Of a stretch of 64,000 nucleotides of DNA, positions 55,636-64,000 are shown in pieces. Made by a program: the position numbers and the translations under genes. Positions within the stretch are counted from its first letter, which is position 1, and the number at the start of each line of letters is the position of its first letter. The notes beneath the pieces are model-generated. The model was given only the letters and a program-made list of their open reading frames with translations, was not told the DNA's origin and ran no database searches. Origin of the DNA: Gimesia chilikensis (GTDB taxonomy: Bacteria; Planctomycetota; Planctomycetia; Planctomycetales; Planctomycetaceae); assembly GCF_007744075.1 (NCBI RefSeq), contig NZ_CP036266.1:3829748-3893747 (forward strand). Reading direction: 5' to 3'.

Positions 55636-57519
55636 TTAAGTAGGAACACCCGATGGTTTGCGTTGGAAATACCACCATTCGAGTAGTAACAGGAAAAACG
55701 CGATCAGGGCAAACTCACTCCAGAGCGGTTTATCGCTGTCAATCTGCGCTGCCGCTGCGCTGACCGGAACTTCGCTGAACTGGATCTTCTCTACGGAAAC
55801 GAGAGAAGTTTCCAGAGGGTTCAATAAACTCACGCCAATTTCGGCATCTTTGGCACCTTCGCCACTGATGTTGTAAGTGCCCACGTGGAGCGCCGCTATG
55901 CCGGACAACACGCCATTCGCATCACTCTTAACTGTCATCGTCTTACCGACAGGGGGCTTAATCTGGTAACTCTGCTCCGGCTGGTATTCCACAACCGGTA
56001 AAACCGGTGTTGCTGCGGCTTGAGTTTCAGCGATTCCGGCCTCCTGCAGAGTCAACTGAACCAGGTTCGAAACCATGATGGGAAAACCAACCCGATAAGG
56101 GAGTGTCGAACGGTCTGTATCGAACAGAAAATAGAATTCCTGATCGGTGGGAGTCCTTTTCTGCAGTAACAGTGGTCCCAGTTTGCCGTGAATCAGAACT
56201 TCGTAGCCCAGTTCTTCCAGATTTTCTACGCCGGAGTTCTCCGTCCAGACCGGCTGCTGGGTGATCTGGACATCACTTAACTGTACGTGTCTGAGCAGCG
56301 ATGAACTGCGGTTCCAGTCCACCACTTCGGTCAGTTCCGTTTCCAGCTTGATATACTTCTCTAACTCTTCCGGTACAAAGCCGACTCCCAGTTTGATTAA
56401 TGCTTCACGATCCATATCCTTAGCGGCACCGGAAATGACCAGATCGTATTCCGCAGGTGCTGAGCTTTGATCTGGTTGTGGATAAAGGATCATCTCGGAG
56501 TTTTCATCCAATGCATACCGATAGCTGGCTAACTCAGGATCCACATAAACCAGAAGTTGACGAGACTGTGGAATGGTCAGATAGGCTTCGTTATCTGCGA
56601 CCAGACTGTCTGCGCCTGCAGGAGTCAGGATGGCTTTGATTTTTGAAGCGCCTCCCGCATCAACGGAGAATTCCAGTCGTTGTGATTCTCCCGGTCCCAG
56701 AACAATCTCTTCCCGGGCCACACTCTGTCCATCCTGGATCAGTTCGACGGAGGCGGAACTGTCTGCCTGTTTTGAGTTCTCGATTCGCAGGAAGACATCC
56801 CAGGTCCCCGCCTGATTTTTGCGGGCATTCATGGAGGTGATTCCGACATTCACGCCAGCAGGAGGCAACAGCTGGTAATTCAGCTCAAAGGGGAGTTCAA
56901 AGTCGATCTCTTGTGGGAAATTGCCATCGGAGTAGAAGAGGACAGATTTAATCGGGGCGGTGCGTGAGAGTGCCTGTGTCATCCGCAGCGCGTCTTCCAG
57001 CTGGCTGGGAACATCATCTACTTCGAGTGATGCCAGCGACTTTTTGAGAACACGCTGATTGTCGGTGAAATCAGTCAGCCGACGGGCAGTCGAGCCGACG
57101 GCGACCAGCGAGATTCTCTGGTCGGGCAGCATATTCTCGATCAGCTCATTCACTCGCTCTTTGGCGAGATCCAGCCGTGACTTTTTTGTTTCCGGATCGG
57201 TCGCAGCCATACTGGCGGAGCAGTCGATCAGAATCGGCAGGTATTCGGCCCGTTCTGCCCCGCTCTGGATATAAGGCTGCATCAAAGCCAGAACCAGGAA
57301 CAGCAGTAACAGGATCTGCAGCAGCAACAGAATGCTGCGTTTGAATTTCTGAAAAGGAGAATTCACCCGACGGTCATTGATGACCTGGCTCCAGAGTGCC
57401 AGCGAAGGCACGCGCTGATGCGGTCGCTTGAGTTTCAAAAAGTAAAACACAAGCAGCGGAATCAGCAGCAATAGAAACCAGGCACCCTGCAGAGCGTAAA
57501 ATCCGGGCCAGAAATTCAT
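55636..57519 (-). CDS. BatA/VWA-domain membrane protein
   Basis: A 627-residue protein with the N-terminal BatA helices (GAWFLLLLIPLLVFYFLKLKRP and ILLLLQILLLLFLVLALMQPYI) followed by a von Willebrand factor A domain whose metal-ion-dependent adhesion site is DCSAS (DxSxS, near residue 97), then a long external region and a final helix (SEFALIAFFLLLLEWWYF). Such BatA-like proteins sit beside MoxR and DUF58 genes and are thought to form an envelope complex with them. ATG at 57519 is preferred: its ATGA overlaps the DUF58 stop by four bases and GGAAAGG lies upstream; an ATG at 57528 gives three extra residues. Confidence 0.85.
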   Translation of the reverse strand: MNFWPGFYALQGAWFLLLLIPLLVFYFLKLKRPHQRVPSLALWSQVINDRRVNSPFQKFKRSILLLLQILLLLFLVLALMQPYIQSGAERAEYLPILIDCSASMAATDPETKKSRLDLAKERVNELIENMLPDQRISLVAVGSTARRLTDFTDNQRVLKKSLASLEVDDVPSQLEDALRMTQALSRTAPIKSVLFYSDGNFPQEIDFELPFELNYQLLPPAGVNVGITSMNARKNQAGTWDVFLRIENSKQADSSASVELIQDGQSVAREEIVLGPGESQRLEFSVDAGGASKIKAILTPAGADSLVADNEAYLTIPQSRQLLVYVDPELASYRYALDENSEMILYPQPDQSSAPAEYDLVISGAAKDMDREALIKLGVGFVPEELEKYIKLETELTEVVDWNRSSSLLRHVQLSDVQITQQPVWTENSGVENLEELGYEVLIHGKLGPLLLQKRTPTDQEFYFLFDTDRSTLPYRVGFPIMVSNLVQLTLQEAGIAETQAAATPVLPVVEYQPEQSYQIKPPVGKTMTVKSDANGVLSGIAALHVGTYNISGEGAKDAEIGVSLLNPLETSLVSVEKIQFSEVPVSAAAAQIDSDKPLWSEFALIAFFLLLLEWWYFQRKPSGVPT

Positions 57520-58421
57520 CGTACCCATCCTTTCCGCCGCAGCTGATCAAAGAGAACATGCTCCAGGGAATCGCCACTGTTGACTGACAGAAAACGTCCC
57601 GAACGCTGTCGACACAGGGATGAGAGGTGGTCTTCCAGCATGGCCCGGTGCTCGTGATACAACCCCAGCAGGTCACCTGCAGAGGAAATATCGAGAGTCT
57701 GGCCTGTCTCGCTGTCGACCAGACGCAAGTCCCCGTTGATTTCCGGATTGACTTCTGAAGGAGCCAGAATCTGAACCCCGAAGATTTCCAGCCCTGCACT
57801 GAATAACATATTCAAAGGACGCTGCAGATCACCGAAAGATTCAAAATCAGAGAGAATGACCGCGATCCCCCGTCCACGGTGCGTCCGTAACACATCTTCC
57901 ACGGCCTGCTCGACCGGTTCATCTCCGCCTGGTTCCAGAGCCGTCAGAAAGTCAAACAGTCGTTTCATACTGACCCGACCCGATGAGGGCGGAAACTGGG
58001 CCGGACGATTCCCCCGCTGATTACAGGCATATACGCTGACCTTCTCAAAGTTTAACAGCCCCATGACTCCGAAAGCTGCAGCCAGTTGTTTTCCCCGTTC
58101 GAATTTGTCTTCGTAATCCATTGAAGACGAGGCATCGAGGATGATGACGACGTGCATTTCCTCTTCATGCTGATACTGTTTCATGAAGGGACGATTCAGA
58201 CGCGAAAATATATTCCAGTCGATGTAGCGGACATCATCGCCGGCCACGTAGTTCCGATAATCAGAAAACTCGGTGCTCGATCCCCCTTTGCCGGTCAGGT
58301 GTTCGCCTCGACTTCGATTCGTAAGCCGCCTGGTCGGATTGAGGCGCATCCGCTCCAGCATCGATAACGTCTTGTTTTCGAACAGCGGGGTATACTGCGT
58401 TAAGGCTGAATTCTCGGCCAC
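57516..58421 (-). CDS. DUF58-domain protein with VWA fold
   Basis: A 301-residue soluble protein. The DUF58 motif GGSSTEFSDYRNYVAGDD followed by YIDWNIFSRLNRPFMKQY is at residues 46-85, and a VWA-like site DASSS (VIILDASSSMDY, DxSxS) follows. DUF58 proteins function with MoxR ATPases; the MoxR gene is 6 bases upstream. This one lacks membrane helices, unlike the DUF58 protein at 23-24 kb. GTG at 58421 (AAGGAG 9 bases upstream). The stop overlaps the next ATG by four bases. Confidence 0.87.
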   Translation of the reverse strand: MAENSALTQYTPLFENKTLSMLERMRLNPTRRLTNRSRGEHLTGKGGSSTEFSDYRNYVAGDDVRYIDWNIFSRLNRPFMKQYQHEEEMHVVIILDASSSMDYEDKFERGKQLAAAFGVMGLLNFEKVSVYACNQRGNRPAQFPPSSGRVSMKRLFDFLTALEPGGDEPVEQAVEDVLRTHRGRGIAVILSDFESFGDLQRPLNMLFSAGLEIFGVQILAPSEVNPEINGDLRLVDSETGQTLDISSAGDLLGLYHEHRAMLEDHLSSLCRQRSGRFLSVNSGDSLEHVLFDQLRRKGWVR

Positions 58422-58427
58422 GGTCCG

Positions 58428-59444
<1,017 letters not shown>

Positions 59445-59474
59445 ATTATTCTCCACGGTTGAAAACCTGTCTGA

Positions 59475-62400
59475 TTACTGATCGTTATCTTTGTCTTCTG
59501 AATTTCGTTTTCGTTTCATGTCCAGTAAACGCCCTGTCGTGGACTGATTATCTGGAGGCGTTTGCGGCGGAGGTGGTGCCGACTGCTGATTTCCGGAATC
59601 CTTTGCCCCGGGGGGCTTCGGAGTGGCTGCAGGCCCCTTCTGCAGACGCAGCTCCTGTAGTTGGGCGAGAGTCGACTGGCCAGTTTGTTCGGTCGAGCCG
59701 CCGCGGCGGGCATCCAGATCGTCCACCACATCCTGTTTGCGCTGCAACAGTGCTCCCATCGTAGCGGTGCTCTGTTTCTGCTCCTTCCCGAACCCAAACC
59801 AGCCTTTGATGACGTACCAGTCAAGCTGTACCCGACGGATGGCAACGTCCAGGGGAACGAGGATTGCCAGTGCCATCAGAAACCAGTCGAAGACCGGGTT
59901 GGAACTCTGTTTAGGATCGCGGCGACCGTAAATGACGTCTGTTGCATTCACGGGATCCAGCCGTTGCCCGCCGGTCTTTTGTGCAATTTCTTCCAACACA
60001 ATGGGATTTGAGCGGAACCGCAGGAATTCTGGTGAATAAGGTACTATGAAACCACCATTGGCGTGATCTTCCCGTTCCCCCGATTTTCCAAGAGCCGTGA
60101 CCTGGTATCGCCCCTTCCCCCAGAGAGGTACCTCAGCCTGGTAGCGACGGGGGCTGACCTGCTTCAGCACCACGGTCTCTTTCCGATCATGGGGGCCAGC
60201 AATCCGGGCTGCGACATTTAGAAACGATTCTTCCGGGTGAAAGTCTTCCACCATAATCGTTGCTTTATTACCTGTAACATGGCTCCACAGTTTCAGATGA
60301 TCCTGTTTCTGCACACGCGAGATCTTGATCATCAGCTGTTTGACAAACGCCTGGTAGTGATCCCAGTTGACCCAGTCTTTTCCCCAGTTGGGAGAGAGGT
60401 CCGAAGTAAAGGCGGCCGTCGTTCCCAGTCCGTAACGCCAGAAGGAAAGAACCGGATCAATCTCCCCTTCGGCTTCTTTCTTTTCCGGCGCGTTTAAGAC
60501 ACCTTCTGCCCGCGGTTTGATTGTGGTCAATACATAACCAAACAGGGGTGGAATGCGCTCAATGCCTTTCAAGACTGGAGAGATCATTCCGACCTCCGGC
60601 ACGAACGTTTCATTCTGAATCATGCTCCGTTTCAGCGTTTTCGATTCTTTGATGAAGATCGAAGGTAACTGGTTGGGATCGGAGGGGAAGTAATACCGGC
60701 CGCCCGTGGCGCCCGCGATGGCCCGCATAGTCGAAATATCGCGCCCGCCATGCGGGAAGATGGCGACCATTGAAACGCTGACCTTATTCTTCTGAAAATC
60801 ACTGATCAGCTTTGGCGCGGGGGGCTGAGGATCACCATCCGAGATGATGATCATGTGCTTGGTGGAGGCATCACTTTCTTTCAGACCCTTCAGCCCCAGA
60901 CGCATCGTGTTGACAAAGCTGGGCATATCGCCAATTTGCGCGCCATTGATCTTGGGGACCATTTTTTCATAATCGCCGGCGGGCGTCAGCTTGAACAGCC
61001 ACTTTTCCCCTTCCATATAATCGTAGACCAGAACCCCGACTTCATCCTGAGCCCCCAGCACCTTGATCGCCTGTTTGGTAATCCGTTTCCCCCAGGTGTT
61101 CCCCTCCGGAAACTCACAGGTATGCAGAATTATCGCCAGCGCGCCTTTGGGTAAAACTTTCTTTTTAGTGATGTCCATCGTGACGGGCAACGCGTCTTCA
61201 ATGACCGTACGATGATAGCCTCCCGGGCCAAAACTGTTGTCTCCGCCGACCATCATGAAGCCGATGCCCTGGTTGAAGACGGAGTCGTGGACGGCTTTGA
61301 GCTGAATGACATTAAACGCATCAGCGGGTACGTTTACGAAAAGAACCGCGTCATAGGGCATCAGTGAGAGCGAGTCATTCGGAAATTCATAAGCCGAAAC
61401 GACATCGACATTGCGTTCCCCTTCGCGAATCGCTTTCACCAGCGACTCCCAGTCCCGGTCATCACCGGCTGGATTCGTAACAACGAGAACTTTCCCTTCG
61501 CCTTCGACATAGATGTAATTGATGACGGTATTGTTTTCGCGGATCTGGTCATCGGCAGCCTGGGTTTCGATTGTCGCGGAATACTCGTAGTAGCCGGGAT
61601 CCCGCAGGTAGATGGGGACGACAAATCGATTTTTGCCGGCTTTGAATTTGACTTCCTGTTCGTAAATCTGTTCTCCGTTCTCACGCAGTACCAGCTTGCC
61701 TGCACCATCCTGGAGCGAAGAGAGTACCACGGAAGCTTCATAGTTTTCGCCCAGTTTGACGAACCGTGGCAATTCCAGATTTTCCAGCCAGACTTCTTTG
61801 TCATATTCATATTGAATCGGTAACACGTCCACGGCGATATCGCGGGATTTCAGCTCGTCCAGAATCTGTGAAATGGAGCCTTCGGTCTCGGTGCCATCGC
61901 TGATCAATACGATGCGTCCGCGGTTTTCTTCAGGCAGCATCGCAGCGGCAAGTGACAGAGTCTGCTCGAGATTGGTTGCATCCCTGTCGATACGCGAATT
62001 CAATGCTTCAAACGGGAACGACATGCGGGGCGGCAGTTCGACAGCCGAATTTCTTCCGAAAACAACGAGACCGGCTTCATCCTTGGGCGGTTTTTCAGTG
62101 ACCGTTTTCGTAACGAATTCCAGTGCCTCATCGACGGATCGTTCACCGATGGAATCGGATAGATCCACGGCATAGACTACCGAGATCACATCGCGTACTC
62201 GAACGGACCGTGGCTCTGCAATCAGGATCACAAACAGCCCCAGCATCACCAGTCGCGTCAGCAGCGCAGCCAGGGCTCTGCCCCTGCTCAGCCCGCCATA
62301 ACCGGCGACAGAGAGCCACCAGACCCAGACTGCGAAGAGAATCAGCACGAATGCCCAGGGCCGGGCAAAGAGCAGAACTCCTGAAAGTTCGAGGCCCACA

Positions 62401-62510
62401 CAGAGGCCAGCGTAGAGCAACAGGAAGAAAATCAAAGGGAGTGCCCGCCGCCACGTCACCTGCGTGCGTGCTCTGGGAACTAACTGTTGGTAGAGTTCTT
62501 TGATTTTCAT
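59475..62510 (-). CDS. Large VWA/glutamine-amidotransferase-like membrane protein
   Basis: A 1011-residue protein with N-terminal helices (LPLIFFLLLYAGLCVGLE, LLFARPWAFVLILFAVWVWW, LALLTRLVMLGLFVILIAEP), then a first VWA domain with site DLSDS (VYAVDLSDSIGE, DxSxS) at about 115, a beta-sandwich region, a GATase1-like region (GKVLVVTNPAGDDRDWESLV... GFMMVGGDNSFGPGGYHR), a second VWA-like domain without the DxSxS site (ILHTCEFPEG; MIIISDGDPQPP is kept), and near the end a helix VFDWFLMALAILVPLDVAIR plus a Gln/Pro-rich cytoplasmic tail. Such proteins occur in planctomycetes next to MoxR genes. The ATGA start overlaps the preceding NHL gene by four bases. No enzymatic residues of a real amidotransferase are seen. 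Confidence 0.78.
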   Translation of the reverse strand: MKIKELYQQLVPRARTQVTWRRALPLIFFLLLYAGLCVGLELSGVLLFARPWAFVLILFAVWVWWLSVAGYGGLSRGRALAALLTRLVMLGLFVILIAEPRSVRVRDVISVVYAVDLSDSIGERSVDEALEFVTKTVTEKPPKDEAGLVVFGRNSAVELPPRMSFPFEALNSRIDRDATNLEQTLSLAAAMLPEENRGRIVLISDGTETEGSISQILDELKSRDIAVDVLPIQYEYDKEVWLENLELPRFVKLGENYEASVVLSSLQDGAGKLVLRENGEQIYEQEVKFKAGKNRFVVPIYLRDPGYYEYSATIETQAADDQIRENNTVINYIYVEGEGKVLVVTNPAGDDRDWESLVKAIREGERNVDVVSAYEFPNDSLSLMPYDAVLFVNVPADAFNVIQLKAVHDSVFNQGIGFMMVGGDNSFGPGGYHRTVIEDALPVTMDITKKKVLPKGALAIILHTCEFPEGNTWGKRITKQAIKVLGAQDEVGVLVYDYMEGEKWLFKLTPAGDYEKMVPKINGAQIGDMPSFVNTMRLGLKGLKESDASTKHMIIISDGDPQPPAPKLISDFQKNKVSVSMVAIFPHGGRDISTMRAIAGATGGRYYFPSDPNQLPSIFIKESKTLKRSMIQNETFVPEVGMISPVLKGIERIPPLFGYVLTTIKPRAEGVLNAPEKKEAEGEIDPVLSFWRYGLGTTAAFTSDLSPNWGKDWVNWDHYQAFVKQLMIKISRVQKQDHLKLWSHVTGNKATIMVEDFHPEESFLNVAARIAGPHDRKETVVLKQVSPRRYQAEVPLWGKGRYQVTALGKSGEREDHANGGFIVPYSPEFLRFRSNPIVLEEIAQKTGGQRLDPVNATDVIYGRRDPKQSSNPVFDWFLMALAILVPLDVAIRRVQLDWYVIKGWFGFGKEQKQSTATMGALLQRKQDVVDDLDARRGGSTEQTGQSTLAQLQELRLQKGPAATPKPPGAKDSGNQQSAPPPPQTPPDNQSTTGRLLDMKRKRNSEDKDNDQ

Positions 62511-64000
62511 GGTGTCAATTTTACGATTAAACGATTTCCGGTGTCAGCCACGAATACCTGATCTTTTGAATTTACTGTCAGTCCCCAGGGAGTCAGAAAT
62601 TCTCCCTGTTGCATCCCCGTTTTCCCAAACCACCCCAGGATGTTTCCCTGCAGGTCTGTTTTGGTAATGCGTCCCGATCCGTATTCCACGATATACAATT
62701 CGCTGGTATTGCGGTCGATGGCGATGTCATAGGGGTAATAGAGGGGAATTCCCCCGGTTTTTGCTCCCAGAATTTCCAGAAACTCTCCTTCATCTGAGAA
62801 AATCTGGATCCGATTATTGATTGCATCCGAGACATAAATTTTGTGATCATGCCAGACCATTCCCGCCGGCCGCTGAAACTCCCCCGGTCCGGTCCCCACC
62901 TTACCGAATTCGAGCAGATACTCGCCCGTTTCCGAGAACTTCTGAACGCGGTCGTGATTACCATATTCACAGACGTAAATATCGCCCTCCGGATCCTGCA
63001 CCACAGACACCGGGTAGATAAACTGGGAAGGACCTTCGCCATACTCGCCCAGCATGCGGAGCACCTTTCCTTCTTTGTCAAAGAAGACGACGCGATGATA
63101 GTGGGTATCCGCAACCGCGATCTCGCCATTTCTGAGCAGACAGACCCCTTCCGGCTTGCCGATTTCAAAATCAGGCATCTCCCACTGTTTGATTAATTCA
63201 TCATTTGCATCGTAAACCAAAACCCTTCCTGCGTTATCCAGCACGTAGAGTTCATCGTCAGGCCCCACATTCAGACTGCGCGGCGCCGGAACCTTGATGC
63301 CTTCCGCGGGAACAGTCCACTGAGAAATGTCAGAGAAGGATAACTCAGGCGCATCACCGGGAATACAGCCTCCGCACAGGAGCAGACAGCAGAACAGAAT
63401 CAGCAGTCGAATGGAAATCCGCTGTCCCACTTCCAGTACTGCTCGCGCAGGTCGATGATAAAAAGTATGTGCTGCACCGGTTTCCCGGTTGACGGTACGA
63501 ACTTCTTCCATAGTTCCGAGAAAGTGAGTCTGTTTGATTTCGAACGGACCGGCAGGATCGGTGATCAGTTCCACCTGTTCGGGGCGTGCCAACATGGGTA
63601 AAACGGAGGTATCCCCGGACGAATCGATTTCATTCACGGGCCCCAGAAATGACGCCACCTTCACCGAGGGAGGCGAACGATAAAGTTCTTCGACTGGACC
63701 ATGATAGATAACCTGCCCCTGATCCAGGCAGATGACCTGTTGTGCTTCGCGGAGTACCAGCTCGGGAGAATGAGTCGAAAAGATAAGTGAAATACTGTGA
63801 GAGTCACAATACGCGCGAATGAAATCCCAGTACTGGGGCCAGTGTGCCTGATCGACGTGGACCAGTGGCTCATCCATCACCAGAACTTTCGCCTGACTGG
63901 CCAGGGCCCGGACAACCGATAACCGGGACGCTTCCCCCTGCGATAACTGTCCAGGGTATTTATCACTCACTTCGGTTAACCCGAAGGCGGCAAGCAGTTC
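62507..64000 (-). CDS. ABC ATPase fused to NHL-repeat lipoprotein-like domain (5' end missing)
   Basis: Runs off the right edge. The first visible part is the C-terminal half of an ABC ATPase: signature LSQGEASRLSVVRAL, Walker B VLVMDEPLVHVD, H-loop STHSPEL and a TOBE-like end (AVLEVGQRISIRLL). It continues in the same frame into a hydrophobic segment RLLILFCCLLLCGGC, with a lipobox-type cysteine at 63365-63367, and six NHL repeats (for example PEGVCLLRNGEIAVADT, ISDAINNRIQIFSD) forming a beta-propeller. As a fusion it would place ATPase inside and propeller outside. An internal start at GTG 63430 would give a separate 307-residue lipoprotein, but its ribosome binding site is poor. The stop overlaps the next gene's ATG by four bases. 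Confidence 0.7.
   Translation of the reverse strand, partial: ELLAAFGLTEVSDKYPGQLSQGEASRLSVVRALASQAKVLVMDEPLVHVDQAHWPQYWDFIRAYCDSHSISLIFSTHSPELVLREAQQVICLDQGQVIYHGPVEELYRSPPSVKVASFLGPVNEIDSSGDTSVLPMLARPEQVELITDPAGPFEIKQTHFLGTMEEVRTVNRETGAAHTFYHRPARAVLEVGQRISIRLLILFCCLLLCGGCIPGDAPELSFSDISQWTVPAEGIKVPAPRSLNVGPDDELYVLDNAGRVLVYDANDELIKQWEMPDFEIGKPEGVCLLRNGEIAVADTHYHRVVFFDKEGKVLRMLGEYGEGPSQFIYPVSVVQDPEGDIYVCEYGNHDRVQKFSETGEYLLEFGKVGTGPGEFQRPAGMVWHDHKIYVSDAINNRIQIFSDEGEFLEILGAKTGGIPLYYPYDIAIDRNTSELYIVEYGSGRITKTDLQGNILGWFGKTGMQQGEFLTPWGLTVNSKDQVFVADTGNRLIVKLTP

Follow-up and report, generated by a model that had tools for sequence, protein, structure and literature searches.

The DNA analyzed in this study (hereafter the window) is a stretch of 64,000 nucleotides from Gimesia chilikensis, a member of Planctomycetota (contig NZ_CP036266.1, positions 3,829,748 to 3,893,747). 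Its far end carries, on the minus strand, a gene in which an ATP-binding cassette (ABC) ATPase and an NHL propeller share a single open reading frame (ORF), here designated ATPase::NHL. The window ends inside this gene: the first base of the ATG corresponds to window position 64348, 348 bases beyond the window end in the single-contig genome of 8.29 Mb, and the full ORF, L002:7255-9096 in locus coordinates, comprises 613 codons down to the TGA at 62507. The 613-residue chain is composed of an ABC ATPase, a TOBE-type domain, 13 uncharged residues ending LCGG-C, and a six-bladed NHL propeller, in this order (Table 1).

Table 1. Features of the ATPase::NHL gene and of the genes downstream of it (window positions)
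Feature	Position	Strand	Basis or remark
ATPase::NHL fusion ORF, in-window part (residues 117-613 and stop TGA)	62507..64000	minus	Open frame
ABC ATPase nucleotide-binding domain, in-window part	63617..64000	minus	Pfam ABC_tran, invariant columns, motif counts; boundary approximate
TOBE-type C-terminal domain of the ATPase	63407..63616	minus	TOBE_2 in L174 and L200; strands 266-322 in the L143 model; start approximate
GTG (Val307), proposed internal start	63428..63430	minus	Not conserved
Uncharged 13-residue segment LLILFCCLLLCGG after Arg314, residues 315-327	63368..63406	minus	Putative h- and c-region of an internal lipoprotein signal peptide
Lipobox Cys328, predicted acylation site, with the predicted cut immediately N-terminal	63365..63367	minus	Cys in 74/74
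NHL six-bladed beta-propeller, residues ~346-613	62510..63313	minus	Pfam NHL and DUF5128; Foldseek 6xg7
VWA/GATase1-like protein, 1011 amino acids	59475..62510	minus	Start ATG overlaps the fusion stop by 4 bases
MoxR-type AAA ATPase (AAA_3; weaker bpMoxR match)	58428..59456	minus	Pfam
DUF58 protein	57516..58421	minus	Conserved order

The in-window part of the ATPase bears the signature LSQGE, the Walker B motif VMDEP and the H-loop THSPE, and the Walker A motif GYSGAGKT lies beyond the window; Pfam ABC_tran matched residues 29-162 of the protein. Among the 74 fused ORFs of the family (see below), the Walker A pattern was found in 73, DEP in 74, the H-loop pattern in 72 and an LSxGE-type signature in 71. 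Pfam called no TOBE_2 domain in the window protein, while in two of the three fused relatives scanned (L174, residues 248-308, and L200) TOBE_2 was detected barely above the cut-off, just before the hydrophobic segment. The last TOBE-type strand (GQRISIR) adjoins the signal segment directly. Pfam NHL matched the window protein with 87.9 bits, the repeats reaching residue 609. For L143, a Gimesia orthologue with 70% identity to the in-window part of the fusion protein, AlphaFold2 gave a model with two confident domains, a mean predicted local distance difference test score (pLDDT) of 92.1 and a predicted template modelling score (pTM) of 0.54. The pLDDT fell below 50 only at residues 1-7 and 332-337, and the latter surround the lipobox Cys335. 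In Foldseek searches, the front half matched FbpC/PotA/MalK-type ATPases (9j4r_B, TMt 0.76), and the back half matched the NHL domain of Thin (6xg7, TMt 0.85) as well as TRIM NHL propellers. None of the best 25 of the 183 matching NCBIfam models reached its cut-off with the window ATPase; among named equivalogs, the score was 90.4 bits against a cut-off of 496 for FbpC (NCBIfam PRK11432).

The fused frame was open in all of the 16 genus genomes with a match, several of them single-contig, and one of the 17 genomes searched (74% complete) gave no match to the fusion. We then surveyed the family in 170 genomes, of which 128 had a match at an E-value of 1e-40; 123 loci were taken, which do not cover every match and exclude the window's own two stretches. 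Both parts shared one frame in 74 of the 123 loci (26 genus codes), and the 49 unfused loci comprised 37 with both parts in separate frames, 11 with the NHL part only and one with the ATPase part only. L022 (G036), with a stop within the ATPase part, and L191 and L197, with the NHL part split over two frames, were counted as fused on their open part; L084/L192, which reads as fused and is truncated by the contig start, and L032, which ends within the ATPase, were counted as not fused. We regard it as almost certain that the ATPase and NHL parts are translated as a single frame.

A scan of named genomes with a single protein as the query gave no match. When an alignment of 25 fused proteins was used as the query, 68 of the best 80 of 326 relatives were fused (52 of Planctomycetota, 13 of Verrucomicrobiota, two of Lentisphaerota and one unassigned), a share skewed both by which query was used and by the limit to the best 80 rows. 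Many of the 68 are metagenome bins with unchecked labels; they also include a named strain, Thalassoglobus neptunius KOR42 (L160), and a complete chromosome, CP087563 (L180). The family set and the named set overlap and are not additive: 46 of the 68 have their NHL core in common with family loci, and the 22 additional proteins (13 of Verrucomicrobiota, seven of Planctomycetota and two of Lentisphaerota) bring the number of distinct fused proteins to 74 + 22 = 96. An indel or assembly error joining two frames, or an accident of a single strain, is extremely improbable, since the same frame recurs throughout the matching genus genomes and across phyla.

An earlier note on this DNA, made from the window alone, had read an ABC ATPase, a lipobox-like helix and a six-bladed NHL propeller in one frame, and the 74 family loci and 22 further proteins bear this out. 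The cytosolic domain, which it put at 180 residues or more, amounts to approximately 314, as the window edge truncates the ATPase. The comparison of orthologues that it suggested revealed the parts as separate genes in the 37 family loci mentioned above. Neither of the observations that it named as fatal to the fusion was made: the orthologues do not all have a stop between the two parts, and a sequencing indel is rejected by the conservation of the frame.

Between the two domains, RISIR of the window protein is followed by LLILFCCLLLCGGC. Across the 74 fused family proteins, 12-18 uncharged residues (mean 14.0) lie between the last charge (His counted) and a Cys that is present in all of them, preceded by Gly in 72 and by Ser in two. 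In an alignment of 57 proteins, which overlaps the 74 but takes in other phyla, no column other than this Cys (C335) is invariant from the end of the TOBE-type domain to the beginning of the propeller. A Cys after Gly, Ala or Ser was also found in 68 of 68 named fused loci, where the preceding residue was part of the search rule (in L163, the Cys was placed too early, the true lipobox being GTAC). Similar lipobox segments are seen in 48 unfused NHL proteins (mean 15.1, range 8-26). The signal in the fusion starts at approximately residue 315 of one open frame instead of at the N-terminus of the primary product. The genome encodes both Lsp (Peptidase_A8, 104.3 bits) and Lgt (LGT, 240.2 bits), each above its cut-off. 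By its length and conservation, the segment agrees better with a site for signal peptidase II than with a span that stays in the membrane, and the lipobox is likely used as such.

We weighed this against a true uncut fusion, namely a single-pass membrane protein with the ATPase inside and the propeller outside, possibly lipidated at Cys328, which would provide a transmembrane coupling between transport and the VWA/MoxR system. The frame conserved over the 96 distinct fused proteins agrees with such a protein, and the L143 model, with two well-ordered domains and a low pTM (0.54), is compatible with a flexible tether. A tether, however, needs no invariant Cys after Gly, Ala or Ser, yet this is the only invariant position between the domains, and a stretch of 12-18 residues is short for crossing a membrane. 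In addition, the halves are separate in related genomes with the lipobox kept, and the propeller gene also occurs without adjoining ABC genes. We therefore consider the uncut fusion unlikely.

The remaining explanation is that GTG 63430 serves as an internal start, so that one mRNA yields two proteins, the C-terminal one being a normal lipoprotein produced besides or instead of the fusion. Translation from this codon would begin with MGQRISIR-LLILFCCLLLCGG-C, which is plausible as a lipoprotein signal; an ATG occurs at a similar place in some relatives (e.g., L019, L024, L025, L053 and L066), and 62 of the 74 fused genes have an ATG, GTG or TTG between -35 and -13, compared with 47 of the 48 unfused NHL genes. 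The codon itself is not conserved, however: L004 (97%), the nearest relative, still has GTG, whereas L005 and L006 (96 and 94% identity) read GCG and L007 (84%) reads GTC. In 19 of the 74 fused genes, the stretch between -40 and the final charged residue ahead of the lipobox holds no ATG, GTG or TTG. Neither GTG nor TTG is significantly enriched among synonymous codons at the junction (GTG, 41/116 Val codons, or 0.353, against 1417/4163, or 0.340, elsewhere, p 0.77; TTG, 38/157 Leu codons, or 0.242, against 956/4949, or 0.193, p 0.15), and Met accounts for 14/962 residues at the junction and 601/48431 elsewhere. As no stop separates the parts, ribosomes from upstream would still produce the fusion. 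We reject the internal start as a general explanation and regard it as quite improbable for the gene studied here; it is not the rule, and may operate in single species.

The earlier note had left the choice between fusion and internal start undecided with a lean to the former. At the level of the frame this lean was justified, though the argument it drew from the weak Shine-Dalgarno motif (GGAA) at GTG 63430 carries little weight: by one rule, such a motif precedes only two of 58 ATPase ATG starts, along with a junction candidate in seven of 74 fused loci and 10 of 48 unfused NHL genes. The "inside-out topology" that it noted is the ordinary order of a cytosolic ATPase, an N-in signal and an exported propeller. 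It did not consider a single chain cut at the internal lipobox, which is the best-fitting option.

The relatives in which the halves are separate genes are instructive. In 25 of the 37 separate-gene loci, the ATPase can be aligned as far as, or almost as far as, the point where the TOBE-type domain ends, and its stop follows; in the others, divergence or shortening of the ATPase tail prevents a judgement. The separate NHL genes have their own start, hydrophobic segment and lipobox. For the phylogenetic analysis, L022, L075, L083, L085, L165, L191 and L197 were removed (contig-cut, interrupted or weak matches), and 178 rows were thinned to 73. The fused/split state changes seven times on the best 73-row tree, of which well-supported branches force only three, and five times on the same tree restricted to the 71 rows showing the Q-loop motif. 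With the halves separate in relatives and the state changing on the tree, a covalent linkage is therefore not required. Because the rows from outside Planctomycetota do not form one clade (three are on the wrong side), the tree does not establish which of the two states, fused or split, came first; fused rows occur on both sides of the drawn root. A peculiar case among the unfused loci is L075 (G071), in which stops interrupt the ATPase part and the NHL part is an open frame of its own with starts and a lipobox; this locus perhaps represents a recent split or decay.

Separately, we noticed a substitution in the ATPase. In the window protein, the Gln of the motif that we take to be the Q-loop is replaced by His, and the Gln is replaced (by Pro, His, Ala, Ser or Gly) in 67 of the 73 fused family ATPases with the motif. 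The Gln is kept in six of these 73 as against 28 of 37 unfused family ATPases; L032, which ends inside the ATPase, was counted among the 38 unfused ATPases of the tally. We do not claim that fusion causes the loss of the Gln, as there were only 3-5 independent pairs (sign test, p 1) and the association is seen in raw counts only.

We propose that ATPase::NHL probably encodes a bacterial polyprotein, one chain that is cut before Cys328 by Lsp into a transporter ATPase and a lipoprotein propeller. One chain would be translated from the fusion gene, and its first ~314 residues would fold into a cytosolic ATPase with a TOBE-type domain, serving the ABC importer encoded directly upstream. The next 13 uncharged residues would be a lipoprotein signal peptide, internal and N-in, directing the remainder of the chain through the Sec channel; Lgt would acylate Cys328, and Lsp (signal peptidase II) would cut before it. 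One product would be the NHL propeller, held by its lipid at the outward-facing side of the membrane; the other would be the ATPase, ending in a short hydrophobic stretch that is either retained or trimmed. The cleavage probably leaves both of them stable. Cutting is favored over a permanent tether because the lipobox is present in every fused protein examined, the halves are separate in relatives, and the NHL gene is found without ABC genes nearby. With somewhat less confidence, we consider it plausible that this is an old polyprotein common to Planctomycetota, Verrucomicrobiota and Lentisphaerota, in which Lsp cuts the internal lipobox and the ATPase keeps the membrane tail of the signal peptide. 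If so, the two products would be tied to equal synthesis and, initially, to the same place at the membrane.

Several points weigh against this proposal. The joined frame is evident in the DNA, and it is from the same letters that we infer the cut, as well as the localization and function of the products. An uncut anchor would equally yield a conserved in-frame fusion. No Lsp substrate that carries a cytosolic leader of 300 residues is known to us from bacteria. Leu occupies position -3 of the lipobox in only 29 of the 74 fused proteins (Cys, Gln, Gly and Ser occur, and the window protein has CGGC), and with a residue other than Leu the processing could be slow or partial. The in-frame ATG, GTG or TTG codons from -35 to -13 in the 62 fused genes may provide a second start species by species. 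Finally, the fused and split states have switched, with seven changes on the best tree, just three of them forced.

The genes around the fusion suggest which partners the two products may have. Among the 68 fused named loci, many of which are clipped by contig or flank ends, a permease match was found upstream in 61 and a binding-protein match upstream in 50, while a VWA match was found downstream in 63 and a MoxR match in 46. The complete set of DUF4175-like protein, binding protein, permease, ATPase::NHL, VWA, MoxR and DUF58 was present in 20 of the 68. In the window genome, 4-base overlaps occur at three junctions, namely DUF4175-like/binding protein, binding protein/permease and fusion/VWA. 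In five named loci (L196, L201, L203, L204 and L205), NHL is accompanied by VWA with no ATPase, permease or binding-protein match in the locus, and MoxR is also present in four of them. At least two of these five genomes (L196 and L204; G022 and G084) carry an ATPase relative on another contig; therefore, the ABC genes there are elsewhere and not lost, and the two modules are separable. The propeller released by the cut may serve the downstream VWA/MoxR/DUF58 module, because it stays with this module at loci without adjoining ABC genes; we put forward this role only tentatively.

The VWA/GATase-like, MoxR and DUF58 genes (57516-62510) form a conserved module together with the NHL protein. The MoxR protein of the window scored 38.9 bits with bpMoxR (cut-off 27) and 210.8 bits with AAA_3. 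Upstream, the permease (L002:9115-10569; 484 amino acids) had no Pfam match at an E-value of 0.01 and 20.3 bits at most in NCBIfam, and is a very divergent importer permease. The binding protein (L002:10566-11609) has an N-terminal hydrophobic stretch that, by eye, is not followed by a Cys in the expected place. Its nearest solved relatives are ferric-binding, the best match in PDB being 4r72, an Fe3+ transport binding protein (E-value of 5.8e-9), and iron as the substrate of the importer is not claimed here. A scan for promoters and terminators yielded nothing useful.

The 96 distinct fused proteins, together with the 37 family loci with separate frames, make it directly testable whether Lsp accepts a signal behind a folded domain of 300 residues. 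Caution is also advised against annotating such a gene by one half only, and with signal-peptide predictors that scan N-termini only.

Each part of the fusion resembles known proteins. The ATPase is similar to FbpC (Thermus FbpBC, 9j4r), PotA and MalK in having a nucleotide-binding domain followed by a C-terminal TOBE-type domain and in being encoded in an operon with a binding protein and a permease. It differs from ferric-type and PotA-type ATPases in scoring below the NCBIfam cut-offs given above, in the usual replacement of the Q-loop Gln, and in being followed by a lipobox and a propeller. The propeller shares the fold and repeat motif of six-bladed NHL propellers (Thin, TRIM71, Brat and bacterial ones), whereas here it is joined to an ATPase via a lipoprotein signal. 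The downstream genes recall the MoxR-vWA-beta-propeller ternary systems (Pfam bpMoxR, PF20030), in which a MoxR ATPase, a VWA protein and a propeller are encoded side by side. In contrast to those systems, the MoxR protein of the present cluster scores far higher on AAA_3, the propeller would be an exported lipoprotein, and an ABC importer is part of the cluster.

The proposed maturation also has counterparts. The core protein of hepatitis C virus carries at its end the signal peptide of E1, the exported protein that follows; signal peptidase separates the two, and the signal peptide holds the core at the membrane until signal-peptide peptidase cleaves it (PMC5402940). The viral case concerns a eukaryotic virus and the signal peptidase of the endoplasmic reticulum, and involves no lipidation; the likeness is an analogy only.

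Among the matches listed in our literature search, which left most subscription journals outside its coverage, there was no account of an ATPase::NHL fusion or of a bacterial polyprotein cut by Lsp. To our knowledge, very few bacterial polyproteins owe their maturation to a signal peptidase, and in none of them does a soluble cytosolic enzyme precede a lipobox. The closest one known to us is the cytochrome b/c1 polyprotein FbcH of Bradyrhizobium, reportedly described by Thony-Meyer and coworkers in 1989, in a paper cited by PMC6256036. FbcH is likewise a single chain from one gene, which a signal peptidase reportedly splits at an internal signal into two proteins that have genes of their own elsewhere. 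ATPase::NHL is comparable in being a single frame with neither a stop nor a conserved internal start and in having its halves separate in relatives. The first half of FbcH is a polytopic membrane protein and its signal is of the signal peptidase I type, whereas a cytosolic ATPase and a lipobox take their places here, and we claim no homology. Thus, the polyprotein matured by a signal peptidase is already known as a kind, and what is new in the arrangement proposed here is the cytosolic enzyme in front and the lipobox as the site.

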